Positions 18,324 through 29,638 of a stretch of DNA of 64,000 bases are shown here, piece after piece. The position numbers were made by a program, and so were the translations under genes. Below the pieces are notes generated by a model. It saw only the letters and a list, made by a program, of their open reading frames with translations, had not been told where the DNA came from and ran no database searches. Origin of the DNA: Chamaesiphon minutus PCC 6605 (GTDB lineage Bacteria > Cyanobacteriota > Cyanobacteriia > Cyanobacteriales > Chamaesiphonaceae); the NCBI RefSeq assembly GCF_000317145.1, contig NC_019697.1, forward strand, positions 1,984,001 to 2,048,000, read 5' to 3'. Position 1 is the first letter of the stretch, and each line of letters starts with the position of its first letter.

Positions 18324-18833
18324 ATGAAATTAGTAACTTCAGCAATTATTGGTTTAGCTAGTACTGGACTATTATTACTGGGAGCCTGTAGTAAAGAAGC
18401 CAAAACCAGCGATTCGGCTAGCCCCGATGCTGCTACACCTACAACTGAAACTGCAACTCCAGCAGCAACTACATCTCCAGCGATGACTACGGCTAAAGCC
18501 GAGAAGAGTGAGGGCGGTAAGAGTAAAGGTGGACAGGTAGTAGAATCGGGTAAGTATCATTTCGAGTTCGTACCAGAGAAGGGTAGTAAGGAAACTCATT
18601 TAGATTTATATCTTCAAAAAGGTGATACTCATGAGGCTATTACTAATGCAAAAGTCACTGCTGATGTGCAATCACCAGATGGTAAGCTAAAAACTATTCC
18701 ACTTAGTTATGATGCCAGTGGGAAGCACTATGCTGGAGTAGTAAGTGATAAAACTGCTGGTCAGTATCAAGTAAAAGTTACTGCCACAATTGGTAGCGAA
18801 CAAGCGGATGGTCGGTTTAATTTCGATCGATAA
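18324..18833 (+). CDS. Lipoprotein with beta-sandwich domain (YtkA/FixH-like)
   Basis: 169 residues. Lipobox LLGAC with Cys22, then a T/A/S-rich linker (25-60), then a beta-rich domain (HFEFVPEKGSKETHLDLYLQ, VTADVQSPDGKLKTIPLSY, GQYQVKVTATIGSEQADGRF). This resembles YtkA-like domains often next to copper genes. It abuts the copper island, transcribed toward the convergent cysteine-rich gene. Role inferred from context only. Confidence 0.6.
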   Translation: MKLVTSAIIGLASTGLLLLGACSKEAKTSDSASPDAATPTTETATPAATTSPAMTTAKAEKSEGGKSKGGQVVESGKYHFEFVPEKGSKETHLDLYLQKGDTHEAITNAKVTADVQSPDGKLKTIPLSYDASGKHYAGVVSDKTAGQYQVKVTATIGSEQADGRFNFDR

Positions 18834-18848
18834 TTAAAGGATATTTTG

Positions 18849-18875
18849 GAGGAATCGACGATTGATTCCTCCTGC
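18849..18875. terminator. Hairpin between convergent genes
   Basis: Arms GGAGGAATC and GATTCCTCC with a 7-base loop, between the ends of the 18324 lipoprotein gene and the minus-strand cysteine-rich peptide gene. Position suits a shared terminator; the T-run is weak. Confidence 0.5.
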
Positions 18876-18884
18876 TTGTGAGAT

Positions 18885-19046
18885 TTACTGGCGAGGTGCA
18901 ACTTTAGGAACACTACAACCCTCGCCACAATCGCAACCACTAGCACATTTACCGCAACCACAGTCAGCGGCAAAAGCAGCTCCAGCAGTTACAACGGCAA
19001 TAGTTACAGCAGCTACTGTTGCTTTTAAAATATTTTTAGCAGTCAT
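18885..19046 (-). CDS. Exported 53-residue cysteine-rich peptide, metallothionein-like
   Basis: ATG at 19046, stop at 18885. Residues 1-26 are a clear signal peptide (MTAKNILKATVAAVTIAVVT, then AGAAFA). The mature part starts ADCGCGKCASGCDCGEGCS, with six Cys in 16 residues in C-x-C and C-x2-3-C spacing typical of metal clusters, then a short tail VPKVAPRQ. It probably binds copper or another soft metal outside the cytoplasm. It has a strong MerR-type promoter: TTGACT and TATGAT 20 bp apart with a palindrome between. I know no named family for it. Divergent from merR. Confidence 0.75.
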   Translation of the reverse strand: MTAKNILKATVAAVTIAVVTAGAAFAADCGCGKCASGCDCGEGCSVPKVAPRQ

Positions 19047-19073: not shown

Positions 19074-19106
19074 ATCATAAACCCTCTAGTTGGCTTGAGA
19101 GTCAAG
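19074..19106 (-). promoter_or_regulatory. MerR-type operator/promoter 1
   Basis: Minus strand -35 TTGACT (19105-19100), 20-bp spacer with dyad CTCAAG-CC-AACTAGAG, -10 TATGAT (19079-19074). The overlong spacer with a palindrome is the hallmark of MerR-activated promoters. It lies between the cysteine-rich gene and merR and may also serve autoregulation. Confidence 0.7.
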
Positions 19107-19137: not shown

Positions 19138-19566
19138 ATGCTGAAAATTGGCGATCTAAAAGAGCGAACGGGAGTGACAGTTAGCACCCTACGTTACTAT
19201 GAAAACCTAGGCTTACTGCAACCAGCACTCAGGAGTGATAGCGGCTATCGCTACTTCAATGACAATGCAGTGCAACGAGTATTGTTCATCAAGAAAGCTC
19301 AAACTCTCAATTTTTCTCTAACTGAGATTCAGGAAATCTTCAATTCTCACAATCGAGGTACAGCCGTTTGCTCGATCGTCAAAGACTTAATCGATCGCAA
19401 AATTAGTCATTTAGATATCGAGATTCAAAAGCTGCTCGCATCTAAGCAAAGATTGGAAAGTCACCGCGAACGATGGGCTACCTACCCTGAAGATCTTCCT
19501 AATAGTGAAACTATCTGTACTCTAATTGAAGAATTGATAGCATTGGAAGCTAATATTGTCGATTAA
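19138..19566 (+). CDS. MerR-family metal-responsive regulator
   Basis: 142 residues. N-terminal MerR winged helix (MLKIGDLKERTGVTVSTLRYYENLGLL shown in part; SGYRYFNDNAVQRVLFIKKA), then a long dimerisation helix and a C-terminal part. Only two cysteines: Cys78 (GTAVCSIV, equivalent in place to the MerR/ZntR inter-subunit Cys) and Cys127. This is not the CueR pair C112-x7-C120, so the metal is not certain; copper is inferred from the target genes. It probably acts on the five palindromes between 19074 and 23588. Confidence 0.8.
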   Translation: MLKIGDLKERTGVTVSTLRYYENLGLLQPALRSDSGYRYFNDNAVQRVLFIKKAQTLNFSLTEIQEIFNSHNRGTAVCSIVKDLIDRKISHLDIEIQKLLASKQRLESHRERWATYPEDLPNSETICTLIEELIALEANIVD

Positions 19567-19697: not shown

Positions 19698-19706
19698 CCT
19701 GGTGAA
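19698..19706. repeat. IS target-site duplication, left
   Basis: CCTGGTGAA, repeated at 20975-20983 directly outside the other inverted end. Confidence 0.85.
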
Positions 19707-20974
19707 CTGACGGGGCGACAGGTCGCCTGAAAACTCGGCAGAGAGACAACTCTAGACAAATAGTATCAAAAAAGATAGGGTAAGAGAGCTTCTTACCCAA
19801 AAAACAATTAAATGTTACCAGAATTGTATCATGCCCATTTGTCAGAAAAATTCACACGCGGTAACTACTTATTGACAATTTTATTGATTCAAGTAGTGCA
19901 ATCTATTAAAGAAGTCACGCTAGAAAGCATCGCAACAAAACTAGCGATGCCAATTAAATTTGAAAGCAGAAGAAAAAAAGTCCAGAGATTTTTATCAAAT
20001 GATGAATGGGATTTAGATAATGTTTGGTTATCACTAGTGATTGCTTGGATTAAAGGCAATGTCAAACAGAATAATATTATATATTTAGCAATAGATCGAA
20101 CCAAATGGCAATCAAACAATATTTTGATGGTCAGTATGATTTGGCGAAAGAGAGCAATTCCTATTTATTGGCAAATGCTTGATAAACAAGGGAACAGTAC
20201 ATTGGAAAACCAACAATTAGTATTAACCCCAGTATTCGCTGCCCTATCAGATTATAGCTTGTTGGTACTGGGAGATCGTGAATTTTGTAGTGTTACTCTT
20301 GCGAACTGGCTTAGAGAGCAGAAAATAGATTTCTGTTTACGACTGAAAAAGAATGTTTGTATCAAGACTGAAGAGGAATTGTGGACTGAACTGAAAAGGC
20401 TAGGATTAGAGCCAGGAAATAGCTTTTTTAATCAAGAAGTAACAATTAGAAAAACTGCACCAGTTGAAGGATTTAACCTAGCAGGTAAATGGCTAGGTAA
20501 ATATCGAAATATTACCACAAAAGAGCCTTGGTATATTCTGACCAGCTTGGCAGATCTACAAGCAGCAGTTGATACCTATGCTAAAAGATTTGGAATTGAG
20601 GAGATGTTTCGAGACTTTAAGGGCGGAGGATATAACTTAGAAAAGACTAATTTAACGGGCGAACGATTGAGCAAATTATTGATTTTGCTATCACTAGCAT
20701 ACTTGAAGAGTATCATCCAAGGGATAGATATCAAATCAAAGCAAGTTCAAGAATATCTCGGCAGAAAAACAGAACATCACCGAAAATATGCTAGACATAG
20801 CACTTTCTATATTGGACTCTGGGGTGAATCATGGGTCGATTCAACATCTAGTAATTGGCAGGTTGTTGTTGAATTAATGTCTTTGTCCCCACATAAACTA
20901 CCTAATTATCAACAAGGCTTGAGAGCTATGAGACTTATCCTATCAGCGTTATAGGCGACAAGTCGCCCCGACAG
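19707..20974 (+). mobile_element. IS4-family insertion sequence, 1268 bp, complete
   Basis: Inverted ends of about 22 bp (left CTGACGGGGCGACAGGTCGC; right, reversed, CTGTCGGGGCGACTTGTCGC) bound one transposase gene. A 9-bp duplication CCTGGTGAA flanks it. The intact frame and exact duplication suggest a fairly recent insertion. It removed the last codons of the 21153 small exported gene. Confidence 0.88.
19812..20954 (+). CDS. IS4-family DDE transposase
   Basis: 380 residues. Catalytic elements: first Asp in YLAIDRTKW (about 97), second Asp in LLVLGDREF (about 156), and the IS4 Y-x2-R-x3-E-x6-K signature YAKRFGIEEMFRDFKGG (about 256-272). It cuts and pastes the IS. The frame is uninterrupted, so the element may be active. 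Lower GC than the neighbours fits an imported element. Confidence 0.92.
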   Translation: MLPELYHAHLSEKFTRGNYLLTILLIQVVQSIKEVTLESIATKLAMPIKFESRRKKVQRFLSNDEWDLDNVWLSLVIAWIKGNVKQNNIIYLAIDRTKWQSNNILMVSMIWRKRAIPIYWQMLDKQGNSTLENQQLVLTPVFAALSDYSLLVLGDREFCSVTLANWLREQKIDFCLRLKKNVCIKTEEELWTELKRLGLEPGNSFFNQEVTIRKTAPVEGFNLAGKWLGKYRNITTKEPWYILTSLADLQAAVDTYAKRFGIEEMFRDFKGGGYNLEKTNLTGERLSKLLILLSLAYLKSIIQGIDIKSKQVQEYLGRKTEHHRKYARHSTFYIGLWGESWVDSTSSNWQVVVELMSLSPHKLPNYQQGLRAMRLILSAL

Positions 20975-21153
20975 CCTGGTGAATAAGATGAAGATTGCGA
21001 ATTAACTGGTAGCTGCATTTTTTCTGACTGCTGCATTTTCTTACAGCAACTACCGCTACTACGCTCTTGAGCAGAAACCGCCCCAGTTGTTATTAATCCT
21101 AAAGTGGCTAATGCCAAGACCGATCCGATTGCTAGCTTAATTTGTTTTGACAT
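20935..21153 (-). pseudogene. Small exported CC-motif peptide, C-terminus replaced by IS insertion
   Basis: As it stands it encodes 72 residues: signal peptide 1-28 (MSKQIKLAIGSVLALATLGL onward to VSA), then SSGSCCKKMQQSEKMQ and a C-terminus that runs into the IS end (CRGDLSPITLIG). Joining both flanks of the IS at the duplication gives the original end SPGYIRGK-stop, a 65-residue product. The mature part, with CC and Met residues, may bind copper; the clipped end may not matter for that. Driven by a near-ideal MerR-type promoter at 21189-21220. Confidence 0.7.
20975..20983. repeat. IS target-site duplication, right
   Basis: CCTGGTGAA, matching 19698-19706. Confidence 0.85.
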
Positions 21154-21356: not shown

Positions 21357-21518
21357 CTAGACATGGTAGAACAAAATTGACATAAATTAAAGGTCTTAAA
21401 AATAATAAATAAACTAAATAATCTATGTCGATCGACTGATTGATTAGCAACAGATTGTTTGTGAATATTAAAGCAGCAAACATCAAAATGTTTGTAAATG
21501 TTATTCAGGAGTAAGCTT

Positions 21519-21869
21519 ATGACTACTACTCAATCTCGTAATTCTCAACTTGAGGCTTGCATCGAAGCCTGCCTTCAATGTCTCCAAGACTGTGAAAATT
21601 GCACCACTGCTTGTCTCAACAGTGATATGGTGCAAATGATGGCAACTTGCATCAAAACCTGTATCGATTGCGCCGATCTTTGTACTCTTTGCGCCCGTTT
21701 CATGAGTCGTAATTCCGAGCTACACGCGCAACTGTGTGGTGTTTGTGCGGATGCTTGCGATCGTTGTGCTGCTGAATGTGAAAAGCACGACCACGACCAT
21801 TGCCGTCGCTGCGCTGAATCTTGTCGTCGGTGTGCTGAGTCTTGCCGTCAAATGTCGATGGCACATTAG
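21519..21869 (+). CDS. Four-helix-bundle copper-storage protein (Csp-like)
   Basis: 116 residues with 21 cysteines and several His, spaced along predicted helices as C-x3-C and C-x2-C (EACIEACLQCLQDCENC, ATCIKTCIDCADLCTLC, CGVCADACDRCAAEC, CRRCAESCRRCAESCRQ). This is the pattern of Csp proteins, whose helix bundle core is lined with Cys and stores many Cu(I) ions. No signal peptide, so cytosolic like Csp3. ATG 21519 follows AGGAGT by 6 bp and is preferred over 21498. It would buffer cytosolic copper alongside CopZ and CopA. Confidence 0.88.
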   Translation: MTTTQSRNSQLEACIEACLQCLQDCENCTTACLNSDMVQMMATCIKTCIDCADLCTLCARFMSRNSELHAQLCGVCADACDRCAAECEKHDHDHCRRCAESCRRCAESCRQMSMAH

Positions 21870-21903
21870 TAACAAATCACTAATCTGACGTTCGGCGATC
21901 TTC

Positions 21904-21933
21904 CTTGACTCTCTAGTTAGCTAGAGAGTCAAG
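21904..21933. promoter_or_regulatory. MerR-type operator 3
   Basis: Perfect palindrome with arms CTTGACTCTCTAG and CTAGAGAGTCAAG and 4-base centre TTAG. TTGACT serves as -35 on either strand; 96 bp upstream of the first DUF305 gene. Confidence 0.7.
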
Positions 21934-22028
21934 CATCGGACGTAAGCAAATCCAAAATAGTACGCTCGATCTTCAATCGAATCGATCGCGATCCATCCAC
22001 CAATATCGACCCAAAACATCCAAAGAAT

Positions 22029-22850
22029 ATGACCGAGCATAACGATCGAGTTAAATCATTCGTCAGTCGAAGAAGAATGGCAAATCCAGTATCAGTTCCA
22101 CCGAAAATATGGGCAGGATTCGCGATCGCTGCCCTCTTTTTGAGTGGCGGATTGGTATCGTGTTCCACTCGCACAGCGCAATCGCCGTCAACAACAGAAA
22201 CTACGACCACAACCACAACCACTCCCGCCGTAAGTTCATCCCCCAACTCATCGCCATCGCCGTCAACAACAGAGGCTACACCCACGACTAGTCCAGCCAT
22301 GAGTTCATCTCCCAGCTCATCTAGTCAAACCATCTCAGATAGAGATTTTCTGACGATGATGACGGCCCATCACAAGCAAGCAATTGAGATGGCGGATTTA
22401 GCCCCATCCCGTGCGAAGCGTCCTGAAGTCAAACAACTCGCTCGATCGATTAGCAAAGACCAAAAGGAAGAGATTCAAACAATGGCAACTTTGTATAAAG
22501 CAGCGTATGGCACAGCAATTCCGTCCATGACAATGGGTGGCGGCATGATGGGCAAGGATAGCAATTCGATGAATGGCATGAATGGCATGAATGGCATGAA
22601 TGGCATGAAAATGGATATGAATGCTCTCAAAAATGCCGCTGATTTTGACAAAGAATTTTTGCAGCAGATGAGTGTCCATCACCCGACAGCAACCCAGATG
22701 AGTCAGATGGTGCTAAAGACAACCAAATCACCACAAATTCGGACATTAGCTCAATCGATCGTTAAGGAGCAAACCGCCGAGGTCGCTCAGATGCGGAAAT
22801 GGTATCAAAGTTGGTATAAATCTGACCTGCCAAATAGCACTTCAAATTAA
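22029..22850 (+). CDS. CopM-like DUF305 lipoprotein with Met-rich segment
   Basis: 273 residues from ATG 22029 (ATG 22077, MANPVSVPPK, gives a shorter leader and is plausible). Lipobox LVSC. After a T/S/P-rich linker, DUF305 occupies about 105-265 with the family His motifs FLTMMTAHHKQAIEMA and FLQQMSVHHPTATQMSQMV. Between them is the repeat MNGMNGMNGMNGMKMDM, a likely copper-binding insert. DUF305 includes CopM, the periplasmic copper-binding protein of Synechocystis. It follows MerR-type operator 3. Confidence 0.85.
   Translation: MTEHNDRVKSFVSRRRMANPVSVPPKIWAGFAIAALFLSGGLVSCSTRTAQSPSTTETTTTTTTTPAVSSSPNSSPSPSTTEATPTTSPAMSSSPSSSSQTISDRDFLTMMTAHHKQAIEMADLAPSRAKRPEVKQLARSISKDQKEEIQTMATLYKAAYGTAIPSMTMGGGMMGKDSNSMNGMNGMNGMNGMKMDMNALKNAADFDKEFLQQMSVHHPTATQMSQMVLKTTKSPQIRTLAQSIVKEQTAEVAQMRKWYQSWYKSDLPNSTSN
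22568..22603 (+). repeat. Tandem ATGAATGGC repeat inside DUF305 gene
   Basis: Four copies of the 9-mer ATGAATGGC encode (MNG)4. Such tandem units may change copy number by slippage and so alter the number of Met ligands. Confidence 0.75.
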
Positions 22851-22893
22851 AGTTTATTCACCCCTTGACTCTTTAGTTGACTAGAGAGTCAAG
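22844..22893. repeat. 50-bp duplicated promoter cassette (copy 1)
   Basis: Matches 23539-23588 at 47 of 50 positions by eye. It includes AAATTAAAGTTTATTCACCC plus the MerR-type palindrome 22864-22893. Confidence 0.75.
22864..22893. promoter_or_regulatory. MerR-type operator 4
   Basis: CTTGACTCTTTAG, centre TTGA, CTAGAGAGTCAAG. -35 TTGACT at 22865. About 40 bp before the second DUF305 gene. Confidence 0.7.
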
Positions 22894-22933
22894 CTAGCAG
22901 ACCAGAAATTCGTCAATTAACGCAAGAAGCAAT

Positions 22934-23494
22934 ATGACTCAACACAAACAAATGTCGGGAATGGGCTGGAACCGATTTGCGGCGACGATCGCAACCTCAA
23001 CATTCATCATGTTCTTCTTGATGTATCAGCTCATATACTCCCTCGATTACGCCACGTTTAGCATCAACCGACTGATCTCTTCACTGGTGATGGGGTGCGT
23101 GATGACCGCTGTGATGCTTTCCTCTATGTGGTCGATGTACCGAGGAACAGGAACCAAGATCGCAGTTCTCGGTTCGGCTGTCGCGCTCGGCTTGATTTTG
23201 CTGTTCGTGAATAGAAGTCAGGCGGTGGTCGAAGATGTCACTTTTATGAAGTCGATGATTCCCCACCACTCAATCGCCATTAACAGTTCGCGGAAGGCAA
23301 GCATTAGCGATCCGCGCGTTCGCAAGCTGGCGGATGAGATTATTGAGTCGCAGGTTCGTGAAACAGCTATTATGCGGTTGCTCCTTAATGATATTGCACA
23401 AAACGGAGAACGGGGGACAGGGGCGAAGCTTCCTGCTCGCTCGACCGAAGTCACCCCTGATATGGAGCGTCAGATTAGAGAAGCAGTGCAGTAA
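22934..23494 (+). CDS. Membrane-anchored DUF305 protein
   Basis: 186 residues. Three membrane segments (about 14-35, 48-68, 76-94) followed by a short DUF305 domain ([20 protein letters not shown], then [16 protein letters not shown]). The IPHH motif is the conserved metal-binding His pair of the family. Smaller than the 22029 protein and anchored by helices instead of lipid. It likely works with it in copper binding at the membrane. Under MerR-type operator 4. Confidence 0.8.
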
Positions 23495-23538: not shown

Positions 23539-23588
23539 AAATTAAAGTTTATTCACCCCTTGACTCTCTAGTTGACTAGAGAGTTGAG
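23539..23588. repeat. 50-bp duplicated promoter cassette (copy 2)
   Basis: See 22844-22893. The duplicated unit gives copZ the same control as the DUF305 gene. Confidence 0.75.
23559..23588. promoter_or_regulatory. MerR-type operator 5
   Basis: CTTGACTCTCTAG, centre TTGA, CTAGAGAGTTGAG. -35 TTGACT 23560-23565 and GAGAAT 20 bp later. Drives copZ and perhaps flavodoxin. Confidence 0.7.
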
Positions 23589-23631
23589 AATAAGATTAAG
23601 TACATCATCGAACAAAGTTCTTCAACTGCAC

Positions 23632-23662: not shown

Positions 23663-23857
23663 ATGACTATCGAACTAAATATTCCTAACATGGCTTGCGC
23701 TGCCTGCTGCGAAACCATTACTAAAGCGGTGATGAAGATCGATCCGACAGCAACCGTCCAAGCCAACCCCAAAACTAAGCAAGTCAAGATCGAAACTCAA
23801 GCTGCTCAAACAGCGATCGAAAGTGCCATTACAGCGGCTGGCTACCAAGTAAGTTAG
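23663..23857 (+). CDS. copZ: CopZ/Atx1-type copper chaperone
   Basis: 64 residues, a single HMA (beta-alpha-beta-beta-alpha-beta) domain. Metal motif NMACAACCET with Cys12 and Cys15, plus an extra Cys16. It would carry Cu(I) in the cytosol to CopA (27374) or store it on Csp. No His in loop 5, unlike Synechocystis Atx1 (the late region reads ITAAGYQVS). Preceded by MerR-type operator 5 and a short dispersed repeat. Flavodoxin follows after 91 bp. Confidence 0.9.
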   Translation: MTIELNIPNMACAACCETITKAVMKIDPTATVQANPKTKQVKIETQAAQTAIESAITAAGYQVS

Positions 23858-24685: not shown

Positions 24686-26449
24686 ATGAATAAGAACGAG
24701 CTGCCCCCTACAGGCAGTCATCAATATCCTCTAACCCGTCGCAGTTTCATTCGAGGAGGTGGTATTGCCAGCGGACTGCTCCTCAGTAGTGGTATTCACA
24801 GCCTGCTATCGAGTTGTTCCCCCCAACCTTCTACTCCGACGAAGACACCCGCACAGAACACCGTAGCCCGCACCCCGAATCCGAAATTCATTCCCGATCT
24901 GGAAATTAACCTCAAGGCTGCACCGAAAACGGTTCAACTATTATCGGGACAACCAACCCAAGTTTGGTCTTATGCAGCAGAGCTGGTTAAAGGCGACCCA
25001 AACAGCTTACAAGCTATTCCCGATAGTTATTTAGGCCCGATTATTCGCGTTCGGCAAGGTCAGCGCGTTCGAGTCAACTTCCAAAACAATCTTCCCCAAG
25101 GACAGCCCAGTATCGTCCATTGGCATGGCTTGATATTGCCAGAAGACATGGATGGACATCCTCGATTTGCGATCGATCCCGGACAAACCTACGTCTATGA
25201 GTTTGAGGTCATCAATCGGGCGGGTACGAACTGGTTTCACCCTCATCCAGACCAGCTTACAGGGCAGCAAGCATACGCTGGCTTGGCAGGAGTGTTTATC
25301 GTCACAGATCCAGAAGAAGCCACTCTCAAACTACCTTCAGGTACTTACGATCTTCCGATCGTGTTGCAAGATCGTACCTTAGATGCCAATAATCAACTTC
25401 TCTATCTGAATAGCAAAATCGGTACGCCTCGTAATACTGGTATGGGCGGTATGGGCGGTATGGGCGGTATGGGCGGTATGGGCGGCATGTCACAGGGTAA
25501 CTCCAGTCAGTCGAGTGGAGGCATGGATGACATGGGCGGTATGATGGGCTTCCTGGGCAAACAGCTCTTCGTCAATGGTCAGCCCGACTTTACCCTGGCT
25601 GCGGCAACGCGAGTCTACCGCCTCCGCATTCTTAATGGTTCTAACGCCCGCATCTACAAGCTAGCATGGAGTAATGGCGATCCTTTGACAGTTATTGGCA
25701 CCGATGGGAGCTTACTGACTCAGCCCGTCATCCGCAAGTATGTGATGCTGGCTCCAGGCGAACGGCTCGATGTCTGGGCAGATTTTAGCAAGCTGAAAGT
25801 TGGGACTCAATTAGCTCTCAATAGTCTGGCTTTTTCTGGAGCAGAGAATGTCGATGAGAATAATATGGGCGGGATGAGTTCTAGTAATGCTCCAGAACTT
25901 GGTGCGGCGATGACCCTATTTAATGTCAAGATCGGGAGGGCAGAAACAGAAACTTTGCAGCTTCCCAGCAAACTAGCTACTCTACCCTTATTGCGTCCAG
26001 AAGATGCTACTAATGCCGCCCAGCCGCGTCCCGTTGAGCTTTCGCTCCAAGGGATGAAATGGGTAATGAATGGTAAACCATTTGAAATGAATGTGGCAAC
26101 ACCGCAAGAAACTGTCAAGTTAAATTCGATCGAGCAGTGGGAGATTATTAATAAACTCAACCCTGGAGCGATGATGGATGCAAAGGGGATGGCGCATCCC
26201 ATCCATCTACACGGTGTGCAGTTTCAAGTCATTAGTCGCCAAGTGTTGCCAGAACTTGCCGCCGGATGGCAAACAGTCAAGGATGGCTATGTGGATGAGG
26301 GCTTCAAGGATACTGTAATGGTGATGCCAGGTGAGCGAGTCAAGCTGCTGATGAAGTTCGATAAATATAGCGGCTTATTTACCTATCATTGCCATAACTT
26401 AGAACATGAAGATGCTGGCATGATGCGAAATTATCGAATTAATACCTAA
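24686..26449 (+). CDS. Tat-exported multicopper oxidase (CueO/CopA-type)
   Basis: 587 residues. Twin-arginine signal [13 protein letters not shown] (12-30) and a lipobox-like LLSSC at about 43. The copper ligands are complete: HWHGL (about 147), WFHPHPD (about 183), [10 protein letters not shown] (about 507) and [14 protein letters not shown] (about 571) with the axial Met. Residues about 250-285 are a [10 protein letters not shown] run plus a Met/Gly tail, comparable with the Met-rich region of CueO that binds Cu(I). It likely oxidises Cu(I) to Cu(II) in the periplasm. Confidence 0.93.
   Translation: [587 protein letters not shown]
25441..25488 (+). repeat. Tandem GGTATGGGC repeat inside oxidase gene
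   Basis: Repeated 9-mers encode [20 protein letters not shown] in the Met-rich loop, suggesting expansion by slippage. Confidence 0.75.
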
Positions 26450-27373: not shown

Positions 27374-29638
27374 ATGGAAGATCTAAATCTCAAACTCAGA
27401 GGGATGAGTTGCGTCTCCTGTGCCAACAGCATTGAGCAAGCAATTCTCGCCGTACCAGGAGTGGTCGAAGGCAACGTCAATTTTAGTAGCGATCGAGCAA
27501 CCGTGCGCTACGATCCCAAACAGACTAGGATCGACACGATCGCTAAAGCAGTTGCCGATATCGGCTATGAAGCCGAAATTATCCCGTCGGATCTCGCACC
27601 TGAAGATGATTCGGAAAATATCAGACAAAGACGGCAAGAGCGAGATCTTCAGCGTCGAGTCATAATCGGGGCAACGCTCACTTTACTCCTGATGCTGGGC
27701 ACATTGGGTCATTTTAATCTCAGACTGCCTGGTGCGTTAGCCGAGCTAGAAAACCCTTGGGTGCAGCTAGTTCTGGCAACACCCGTTCAGTTTTGGGTAG
27801 GCAAAGAATTTCACCAGTCGGCGTGGAAGGCATTTCGCCATCGCACTGCTGATATGAATACCCTGATTTCGCTCGGTACGAATATCGCTTTTTTCTATTC
27901 GTTATGGATAACGATAAATCCTAATTATTTCACAGATCGAGGCTTGTTAGCCCAAGTCTATTATGAAGTGTCGGCGGCGATCGTCACTTTGACACTATTA
28001 GGACGGTGGTTAGAAAATCGCGCTAAGGGCGCAACTTCAACCGCAATTCAAGCTCTAATGGGGCTACAAGCCAAAACAGCGCGGGTGGTAAGAGATAATG
28101 TCGAAATGGACATTCCGATCGGCGAAGTCGCACTGGCTGATATTGTCATCGTGCGCCCTGGTGAAAAAATCCCCGTCGATGGGCGAGTTTTATCGGGATA
28201 TTCTACTGTCGATGAATCGATGCTGACTGGTGAGAGTTTGCCAGTTGCCAAACAAGTCGGCGATGAAGTTGTCGGCGCAACGCTCAATAAGATGGGCAGC
28301 TTTCAATTTCGGGCGACCAAAATCGGTAAAGATACCGCGTTGGCGCAGATCGTCAAACTAGTTCAGCAAGCCCAGAATTCTAAAGCTCCGATCCAAAAGC
28401 TTGCCGATAATATTACTAGCTGGTTCGTACCAGTAATTATCGCGATCGCCATTAGCACTTTTGTCATCTGGTTTCTAGCGATCGGTAATTTTACGCTTTC
28501 GATCGTTACGATGGTTGGCGTATTAATTATCGCCTGTCCCTGCGCTTTAGGTCTAGCAACGCCCACATCAGTGACTGTCGGCATCGGCAAAGGGGCAGAA
28601 CATGGCATCCTGATTAAAGGGGCAGAAAGTCTAGAACTCGCTCGCAAAATCCAAACGATCGTGCTGGATAAGACGGGTACGATTACTCAGGGTAAGCCAG
28701 TTGTCACCGACACTACCTCGATCCTGGATCTGATTCCCAATAGTCCAGGTGTTGTAGATCCACTGACTTTATGGCGATCGATCGGTGCTTTAGAAAGCAA
28801 CTCCGAACATCCTCTAGCTGAAGCCTTGTTGCAATATGCCCGCGAACGCAGTAAAGATGCCCAATTACCTACTGTCGATCGATTTGAAGCGATCGCGGGT
28901 AGCGGCGTTAAAGGAAGCGTCGAAGGGCGGGAAGTTTCGATCGGCACCCAACGCTGGTTCGATGAAATGGGACTCGATTCGTCGGCATTCCAAGCCGAGC
29001 AACAAGCCTTAGAAAATGCTGGGAAAACTGTGGTTTTTGCGGCTGTTGATGGGCATTTACAATCCGCGATCGCGGTTGCCGATACTGTCAAACCCAACTC
29101 TGCTAAAGCAGTTCAAACCTTGCAGAAAATGGGCATCGAAGTAATCATGCTCACTGGCGATAATCAGCGTACCGCCAAAGCGATCGCCGATCGAGTCGGG
29201 ATTAAACGTGTCCTCGCTGAAGTCCGCCCCGACCAAAAAGCGCAAATGATTCAGACTTTGCAAGTGCAAGAGAAAAAAATTGTAGCAATGGTGGGAGACG
29301 GCATTAATGATGCCCCAGCTTTGGCTCAGGCTGATGTCGGGATGGCGATCGGCACTGGCACGGATGTCGCGATCGCCGCAAGTGATATTACGCTGATTTC
29401 GGGAGACTTACAGGGGATTGTGACGGCAATTCGGCTCAGTCGTGCCACGATGCAAAATATTCAGCAGAATCTATTTTGGGCATTCGGTTACAATGTGCTG
29501 GGCATCCCGTTGGCTGCGGGAATCTTGTTCCCATTTACTGGCTGGTTGCTCAATCCGGCGATTGCAGGCGCGGCGATGGCATTTAGTTCGATTTCAGTCG
29601 TCCTCAATGCTTTGAGATTACAAGGAGTGAAAATATGA
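27374..29638 (+). CDS. copA: Copper-exporting P1B-type ATPase
   Basis: 754 residues. One N-terminal HMA domain ([14 protein letters not shown], residues 8-21), eight membrane helices, transport motif [14 protein letters not shown] (about 390) with the CPC pair, phosphorylation site DKTGTITQG (about 435), and [12 protein letters not shown] (about 640). The [10 protein letters not shown] form and later conserved residues mark Cu(I) ATPases (subtype 1B-1). It pumps Cu(I) out of the cytosol, accepting it from CopZ. Stop overlaps the start of the next gene (ATGA), indicating coupling. Confidence 0.95.

Follow-up and report, generated by a model that had tools for sequence, protein, structure and literature searches.

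Metallothioneins are described as cytosolic proteins, and in the excerpted account NmtA is controlled by a repressor of the SmtB/ArsR family, not by a MerR protein (PMC8790569). Excerpts of two further reports place metallothioneins elsewhere: PmtA, the metallothionein of Pseudomonas aeruginosa, is found on the cell surface, with nonclassical secretion or autolysis proposed as its route (PMC11237414), and metallothioneins have been detected in cyanobacterial exoproteomes, where their role is unclear (PMC4894872). Copper binders of other kinds are exported as well. According to the portions of the literature consulted, Csp1 is an exported, Cys-rich protein that stores Cu(I) as thiolates (PMC7558416; PMC12510493), CopG holds a tetranuclear copper cluster in the periplasm through cysteines, with a CxCC motif and an adjacent methionine (PMC7558416), and PcoE and SilE are induced periplasmic buffers for copper and silver (PMC7558416; PMC5008109). 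In both Csp1 and CopG, going by the same portions, thiolate coordination of copper works outside the cytosol (PMC7558416; PMC12510493).

The locus described here lies in a 64,000-nucleotide stretch of the genome of Chamaesiphon minutus PCC 6605, which we call the window. It encodes a short six-cysteine peptide, peptide A, beside a MerR-family regulator and a set of copper genes. Neither peptide A nor the pairing of a MerR gene with such a peptide is described among the matches listed from the PMC literature.

A six-cysteine peptide divergent from a MerR gene

Peptide A is encoded by an ORF of 53 codons with an ATG start, which occupies exactly positions 18885–19046 on the minus strand. The gene and its immediate surroundings comprise the following features.

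18324..18833, plus strand: lipoprotein, the convergent neighbor of peptide A, also present beside the other intact copies
18848..18872, no strand assigned: stem-loop GGAGGAATC/GATTCCTCC separating the stop codons of the convergent peptide A and lipoprotein genes, z −3.43
18885..19046, minus strand: peptide A, predicted exported six-Cys peptide (ORF, 53 aa; signal 1–26 by eye)
19074..19105, minus strand: MerR-type operator/promoter of peptide A, TTGACT-20 nt-TATGAT with dyad
19138..19566, plus strand: MerR-family regulator (Pfam/NCBIfam), divergent from peptide A, with C78 and C127 as its only Cys residues

By inspection, residues 1–26 form a Sec-type signal (MTAKNILK / ATVAAVTIAVVTAGAAF / AFA-AD), with lysines at positions 4 and 8, a run of A, V, T, I, and G residues, and an AFA-AD end. 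The predicted mature part is the 27 residues that begin at A27, ADCGCGKCASGCDCGEGCSVPKVAPRQ, and it contains six cysteines (positions 29, 31, 34, 38, 40, and 44) in the spacing C-x-C-x2-C-x3-C-x-C-x3-C. A chain this short and this rich in Cys, with two C-x-C motifs, has the layout of a metallothionein in the wide sense. Its charges cancel (two Asp, one Glu, two Lys, and one Arg), it has no His, and the copy in the window also has no Met. An AAGGA sequence ends 10 nt before the ATG. The gene is probably monocistronic, since the next downstream gene lies on the opposite strand. The stem between the two stops, 9 bp long and without a T-run, is a candidate terminator at most; the terminator scan reported nothing at this position, and a similar stem is visible in the sequence at L002 and L004.

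Two further intact copies of the gene, 92% identical, are present on contig C3 of the host genome (6.76 Mb in three contigs), and Chamaesiphon polymorphus CCALA 037 has one intact copy (L017) that is 98% identical, which argues that the ORF is not a chance one. A remnant of the mature part is found on contig C1 of the host (L004), and C. polymorphus has a second, broken copy (L016) of 35 residues followed by KWHN and a stop. In this broken copy (4001–4540 of L016) the peptide is cut after residue 35, apparently by rearrangement onto an unrelated ORF, and the adjoining MerR gene is an intact 142-aa ORF. All six cysteines are invariant in an alignment of the four intact copies, and pN is below pS over the whole gene in all six pairwise comparisons. 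Within the mature part, L002 and L003 differ by four synonymous and no nonsynonymous changes, the window copy differs from L002/L003 by 2.7–4.7 synonymous and 4.3 nonsynonymous changes, and the window copy differs from L017 by one of each; a synonymous excess within the mature part is thus clear for one copy pair only.

The copper island, its operators, and its regulator

Beyond the MerR gene, the window continues with the features listed below.

20935..21153, minus strand: peptide B, second predicted exported Cys peptide (CCKKM core), with an IS insertion in place of its final codons
21189..21220, minus strand: MerR-type operator/promoter of peptide B, TTGACT-20-TATAAT, −10 perfect (6/6)
21498..21869, plus strand: DUF326 copper-storage-type protein (Pfam DUF326 above cutoff, NCBIfam Csp1 model below cutoff, no signal peptide seen)
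21901..21936, no strand assigned: palindromic MerR-type operator before the CopM gene, weak −10
22029..22850, plus strand: CopM-family DUF305 protein (NF049983, 107 bits against a cutoff of 90)
22861..22896, no strand assigned: MerR-type operator before the second DUF305 gene, weak −10
22934–23494: second DUF305 gene
23560..23591, plus strand: MerR-type operator before CopZ
23663..23857, plus strand: CopZ-type HMA protein (Pfam HMA above cutoff, NCBIfam CopZ models below cutoffs)
24686..26449, plus strand: multicopper oxidase (Pfam Cu-oxidase models above cutoff)
27374..29638, plus strand: Cu-translocating P-type ATPase, CopA type (TIGR01511, 643.6 bits against a cutoff of 397)

By its gene content, this region is a copper-resistance island. 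The ATPase also passes TIGR01512, a general cadmium-family model, with a score below that of the copper model; apart from this match, none of 16 window proteins compared with NCBIfam receives a name for mercury, cadmium, or zinc resistance above cutoff. An IS element (19698–20983, transposase 19812–20954) with a 9-bp direct repeat, CCTGGTGAA, has inserted into the final codons of peptide B, whose Cys/Met core is intact.

The host carries this island more than once, and the copies of peptide A sit in its repeats. When 24 window genes were searched by tblastn, the block A-MerR-B-Csp-CopM-CopZ-flavodoxin-oxidase-CopA was found again at C3:80–92 kb, with CopZ in two pieces, and at C3:371–384 kb, with Csp in two pieces and CopA matched over 260 of 754 residues only; a more broken set of island genes lies at C1:1.739–1.755 Mb. 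Across these three copies (L118–L120), most genes are 70–94% identical.

The site upstream of peptide A, read from 19105 to 19074, is TTGACTCTCAAGCCAACTAGAGGGTTTATGAT. Its −10 element agrees at five of six positions and its dyad at 7 of 11, and with a 20-nt spacer and a divergent MerR gene the sequence has the arrangement expected of a MerR-controlled gene. A standard sigma-70 scan for spacers of 16–18 nt does not list this promoter, as expected for a spacer of 20 nt. Both C3 copies and the C. polymorphus copy L017 share this 32-nt operator unchanged. Loosened to tolerate up to three mismatches, the pattern matches seven times in the window, a number reached by none of 100 shuffles. Across both strands of the whole genome it matches 27 times, several of these being the two strands of one palindrome; 24 fall within the four copper islands, and the other three carry three mismatches each. 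A reversed control pattern has one match in the genome. The matches in the window precede peptide A, peptide B, the CopM gene, the second DUF305 gene, and CopZ. The dyads at the CopM, DUF305, and CopZ sites agree at 9–10 of 11 positions, and activation from the CopM and DUF305 sites would be less sure because their −10 elements are poor (2–3 of 6).

A preliminary description of peptide A had given it 53 residues, a signal peptide, a 27-residue mature part with six Cys, and a link to merR. The ORF, its positions, and the cysteine spacing are all as stated there, the signal is recognizable by eye as Sec type, and the link to merR takes the form of a divergent gene and an operator directed toward the peptide. 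The same description had credited peptide A with the best-formed MerR promoter of the island, which does not hold: the −10 element is perfect at peptide B (6/6, compared with 5/6 at peptide A), and the dyads are better formed at the CopM, DUF305, and CopZ sites (9–10 against 7 of 11).

To place the regulator, we searched 388 genomes of the class with the MerR sequence and found matches in 73 (own included) at E 1e-30 or better. From the 86 matches listed outside the host genome, 49 loci were examined, comprising the 48 best-scoring and one more. All 49 relatives have Cys near positions 78 and 127, within a few residues, and none in the region 108–121. In a PDB search, the closest solved relatives of the window MerR are 4ua1 (entered as 'Regulatory protein'), which we take to be a Bacillus MerR, and CadR, with CueR weaker. 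The ligands of CueR (the loop pair C112 and C120, and Ser77) are missing from the window MerR, which has only C78 and C127. As far as the excerpted source goes, Ser at the first position marks monovalent sensors and Cys divalent ones (PMC11591864). The pattern points to a divalent or broad sensor, since Cys stands where monovalent sensors have Ser and the CueR loop has no Cys. Either copper is sensed in this clade through a different set of ligands, or the island also responds to divalent metals. Operators precede CopZ and CopM genes in this clade, which offers a MerR that seemingly runs copper genes without the CueR ligand pair and possibly has an unusual copper-sensing site.

Cysteine peptides beside related MerR genes and the distribution of peptide A

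The neighbors of the related MerR genes were screened by an automatic rule for ORFs that are divergent from the MerR, 30–110 aa long, and endowed with a signal-like start and at least three Cys. By this rule, a Cys peptide with predicted export is found at 14 of the 20 top-ranked loci, compared with none of the 29 lower-ranked ones. A further top-20 locus (L062) is cut by a contig end, and another (L052, the same as L123) has a B-type peptide on the strand of the MerR itself. Eleven genera are represented in the top 20, and the 14 loci come from six of them; a single genus (g112) supplies eight of the 14 loci. At 12 of these 14 the operator pattern is directed toward the peptide; of the remaining 35 loci, 9 have it on the same strand.

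Three types of peptide occupy this slot at the related loci: type B, with GCxCCKxM and a Met-rich tail; type C, 46–51 aa long with an end like PCLFPTPDCPPSNCD; and type D, which ends in SCCCSKKD. Type C is found at ten loci (L053–L058, L060, L063, L069, and L070), where the peptide lies at ≈1.1–1.3 kb when the MerR is set to the plus strand; it has the features of an exported peptide and is divergent from the same MerR clade. The operator pattern is directed toward it in eight of the ten, as in the example TTGACTCTCAAGCCAACCTCAGGGTTTACC. Other neighbors in the slot are CopZ-like and ATPase-like ORFs (L061) and a thioredoxin-like protein on Nostoc and Tolypothrix plasmids. Near the same MerR clade we also observe Met-rich peptides with predicted export (MMSMMxNMMG) on Chroococcidiopsis and Gloeocapsa plasmids (L113, 4086–4430; L114, 3769–4086). 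The six-Cys layout of peptide A was not found among the slot peptides of the 14 loci, and because none of the other peptides has it, we regard peptide A as the Chamaesiphon occupant of this recurrent place.

Peptide B appears to belong to a widespread cyanobacterial family of peptides with predicted export, the GCxCCKxM core, and a Met-rich tail. A nine-row profile, in which C33, C36, C37, and M40 are invariant, finds it in 25 of the 388 genomes (own included) at E 0.01 or better. Of the 24 loci outside the host, 15 were kept (L121–L133, L136, and L138; L129 without an assigned start); three of these (L121, L122, and L124) had themselves supplied rows to the profile, and the L. boryana row is found at L123. 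The loci set aside are longer proteins with a CxCC motif (L134, L135, and L139, presumably DUF411/CopG-like), other frames or sequences without the Cys core (L137, L140, and L141), and three dropped for weak E-values alone (L142–L144). A MerR-type operator pattern lies within 300 nt upstream in 11 of the 15 kept loci, compared with 16 of 810 background stretches. Carriers of B-type peptides include plasmids of Chondrocystis sp. NIES-4102, Leptolyngbya boryana NIES-2135, and Nostoc carneum NIES-2107. Cu(I) binding by peptide B is plausible by analogy, because CopG binds its copper cluster through CxCC and an adjacent Met.

Peptide A itself is far more restricted. A family-level search of 11 genomes, own included, finds it in two of the nine genomes of the genus. 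The preliminary description had proposed that a lack of conservation in related genomes would count against it, and the outcome is mixed: a second Chamaesiphon has the peptide, but the seven other genomes of the genus (77–100% complete) and both other genomes of the family do not. With only two of nine genomes carrying it, peptide A would be an accessory, dispensable component in the genus.

In a single-sequence search of the 388 class genomes, no other credible match to peptide A was found. Eight genomes other than the host scored at E 0.005–0.01 and are counted as chance; frames were obtained for seven of these loci and none for L014. A four-row profile matched 13 genomes other than the host at E 0.001–0.008 in the same set, of which 11 matches were fetched and translated (the place of L014 is L151 here). 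None of the 11 is a short peptide with a signal and six Cys; they contain stops, are parts of longer frames, or run antisense to a long ORF (L155 and L158), and we count them as chance as well. Viral contigs gave no match for peptide A, phmmer with the mature peptide gave none in the PDB, and Pfam gave no family match, DUF326 included; in NCBIfam only ExtJ appeared (E 0.034, 14.6 bits against a cutoff of 52.5). A pattern scan of genome contigs returned at least 597 stretches, with one confirmed relative among the matches listed. No match for peptide A, peptide B, or type C was found in PLSDB by tblastn, a search of low sensitivity that missed B-type peptides later found beside MerR in three PLSDB plasmids (L112, L115, and L117). 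Similarly, the single-sequence class search for peptide B recovered 4 of 15 profile members (G080, G213, G296, and G263, the last at a different place). Distant relatives of peptide A may therefore be missed, as searches with such short peptides missed known B-type members, and the best reading is that peptide A is found only in Chamaesiphon, by searches that are weak for so short a sequence.

Taken further, these observations suggest a proposal that we hold tentatively, as a little short of an even call: that cyanobacterial copper islands have a modular slot beside a C78/C127 MerR, occupied by Cys peptides that are unrelated to one another, change fast, and are exported by the Sec route (type A, a thionein with six Cys; type B, with GCxCCKxM and a Met-rich tail; type C, with PC-x7-C-x4-C; type D, with CCC), and that peptide A is a genuinely exported metallothionein that has converged on the Cu-thionein core of fungi and acts as an extracytoplasmic copper buffer. 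All four types are very short and could be synthesized as candidates for Cu(I) binding.

Proposed function and comparison with known systems

Peptide A belongs to none of the tested families, and its expected role is that of a metallothionein or metal sponge. On the sequence evidence, we think it rather likely that it is a MerR-induced, Sec-exported, thionein-like peptide of the copper-resistance island that serves as a Cu(I)-thiolate sponge. A metal, most likely Cu(I), would load the divergent MerR; bound at the overlong 20-nt spacer, the MerR would realign it and turn on peptide A, and the same switch would turn on peptide B, CopM, CopZ, and perhaps other island genes. The 53-mer would then cross the cytoplasmic membrane and lose its signal. 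In the periplasm (or thylakoid lumen) the 27-residue peptide, with its thiols reduced, would fold to enclose a small Cu(I)-thiolate cluster and would protect the cell by buffering copper that is pushed out by CopA and handled by CopM and the multicopper oxidase. The copies, the invariant cysteines, the recurring block, the operators, the island genes, the six Cys among 27 mature residues with no His and with canceling charges, the likeness to 1t2y described below, the slot loci, and the Csp1 and CopG precedents argue for a copper sponge. Against it stand the failure of any family model or solved structure to match, the cysteine pattern of the MerR, the presence in two of nine genomes of the genus, and the synonymous excess of the mature part in one pair only. 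The exported thiols may also be oxidized to disulfides.

The cysteine pattern of the regulator bears on which metal is involved. The same exported thionein could have a divalent metal (Hg, Cd, Zn, or Pb) as its physiological partner, induced by a Hg/Cd-type MerR with the copper genes co-controlled. Only C78 and C127 are present in the MerR and the CueR loop region is free of Cys, as in all 49 relatives; 4ua1 and CadR outscore CueR among solved structures; and merF is found close to one MerR relative, that of Gloeocapsa sp. PCC 7428. However, operators precede CopM and CopZ, the island encodes a Cu-ATPase and a multicopper oxidase, and the lower TIGR01512 score of the ATPase is the sole Hg/Cd/Zn resistance match above cutoff among the 16 window proteins compared with NCBIfam, so that we judge a divalent partner unlikely. 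A peptide that binds no metal and is instead a disulfide-bonded exported product, of a bacteriocin, defensin, or signal kind, would agree with the even number of cysteines and with the small size and predicted export of peptide A. Spacings of C-x-C and C-x2-C suit metal clusters rather than disulfides, the charges of the mature part cancel, and the operator ties the gene to copper genes, all of which make such a product quite improbable.

We give a similarly low probability to the idea that peptide A is a redundant, decaying accessory of the island without a present function. The C1 remnant (L004), the broken copy in C. polymorphus, and the absence from seven of nine genomes of the genus speak for decay, but three intact copies have the same 32-nt operator, all six whole-gene comparisons give a pN lower than pS, and all six Cys are kept. 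A small ORF beside a regulator could also encode a leader or sensing peptide, its translation serving to control a second gene. Here, however, the next downstream gene, that of the lipoprotein, lies on the opposite strand and converges with peptide A, and a stem-loop separates the two stops; with no sense gene after peptide A we reject this reading, which is highly improbable. The copper sponge remains our preferred account of peptide A, and it can be set beside the systems already described.

The closest likeness is to the Cu-metallothionein of Neurospora crassa (1t2y). Its alignment with the core of peptide A (DCGC-GKCASGCDCGEGCS / DCGCSG--ASSCNCGSGCS) has 13 identities in 16 pairs, and its score is equaled by one full shuffle in 5000 and by two in 5000 with Cys fixed, a significance that is overstated because the target was picked by eye. 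Both are short chains of Gly, Ser, and Cys with C-x-C and C-x3-C spacing. The fungal protein is cytosolic and has 25 aa and seven Cys, whereas peptide A has six Cys, preceded by a signal and followed by a Cys-free tail. The resemblance is probably convergent, and homology is unlikely.

Among bacterial metallothioneins, SmtA and NmtA (both cyanobacterial) and MymT are, like peptide A, small Cys-rich metal buffers. Peptide A differs from the SmtA/NmtA type in that it matches no Pfam or NCBIfam family and, by inspection, has a Sec-like signal in place of a cytosolic location. The preliminary term metallothionein-like is borne out by the layout and by the likeness to the fungal core but not by any family model. 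PmtA, for which the excerpted source gives no known route, is found outside the cytosol, whereas peptide A carries a signal of its own. Peptide A is unlike Csp1, a far longer four-helix bundle with a Tat signal: it has 27 mature residues, a Sec-like signal, and no match to DUF326, a family that its neighbor at 21498–21869 does match. PcoE and SilE are larger and use His and Met ligands, both of which are missing from the mature peptide in the window. CopG is a thioredoxin-like domain whose CxCC and Met resemble peptide B and not peptide A, which has no CxCC. Export had been put forward as what makes peptide A unusual; this is fair in relation to classical metallothioneins, but exported Cys-rich copper binders as such are already known in Csp1 and CopG, as the excerpted sources describe them. 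Bacterial metallothioneins are generally described as cytosolic, and if our reading is true, peptide A would perform the same chemistry outside the cytoplasm, in a photosynthetic cell that has copper proteins in both its lumen and its periplasm.
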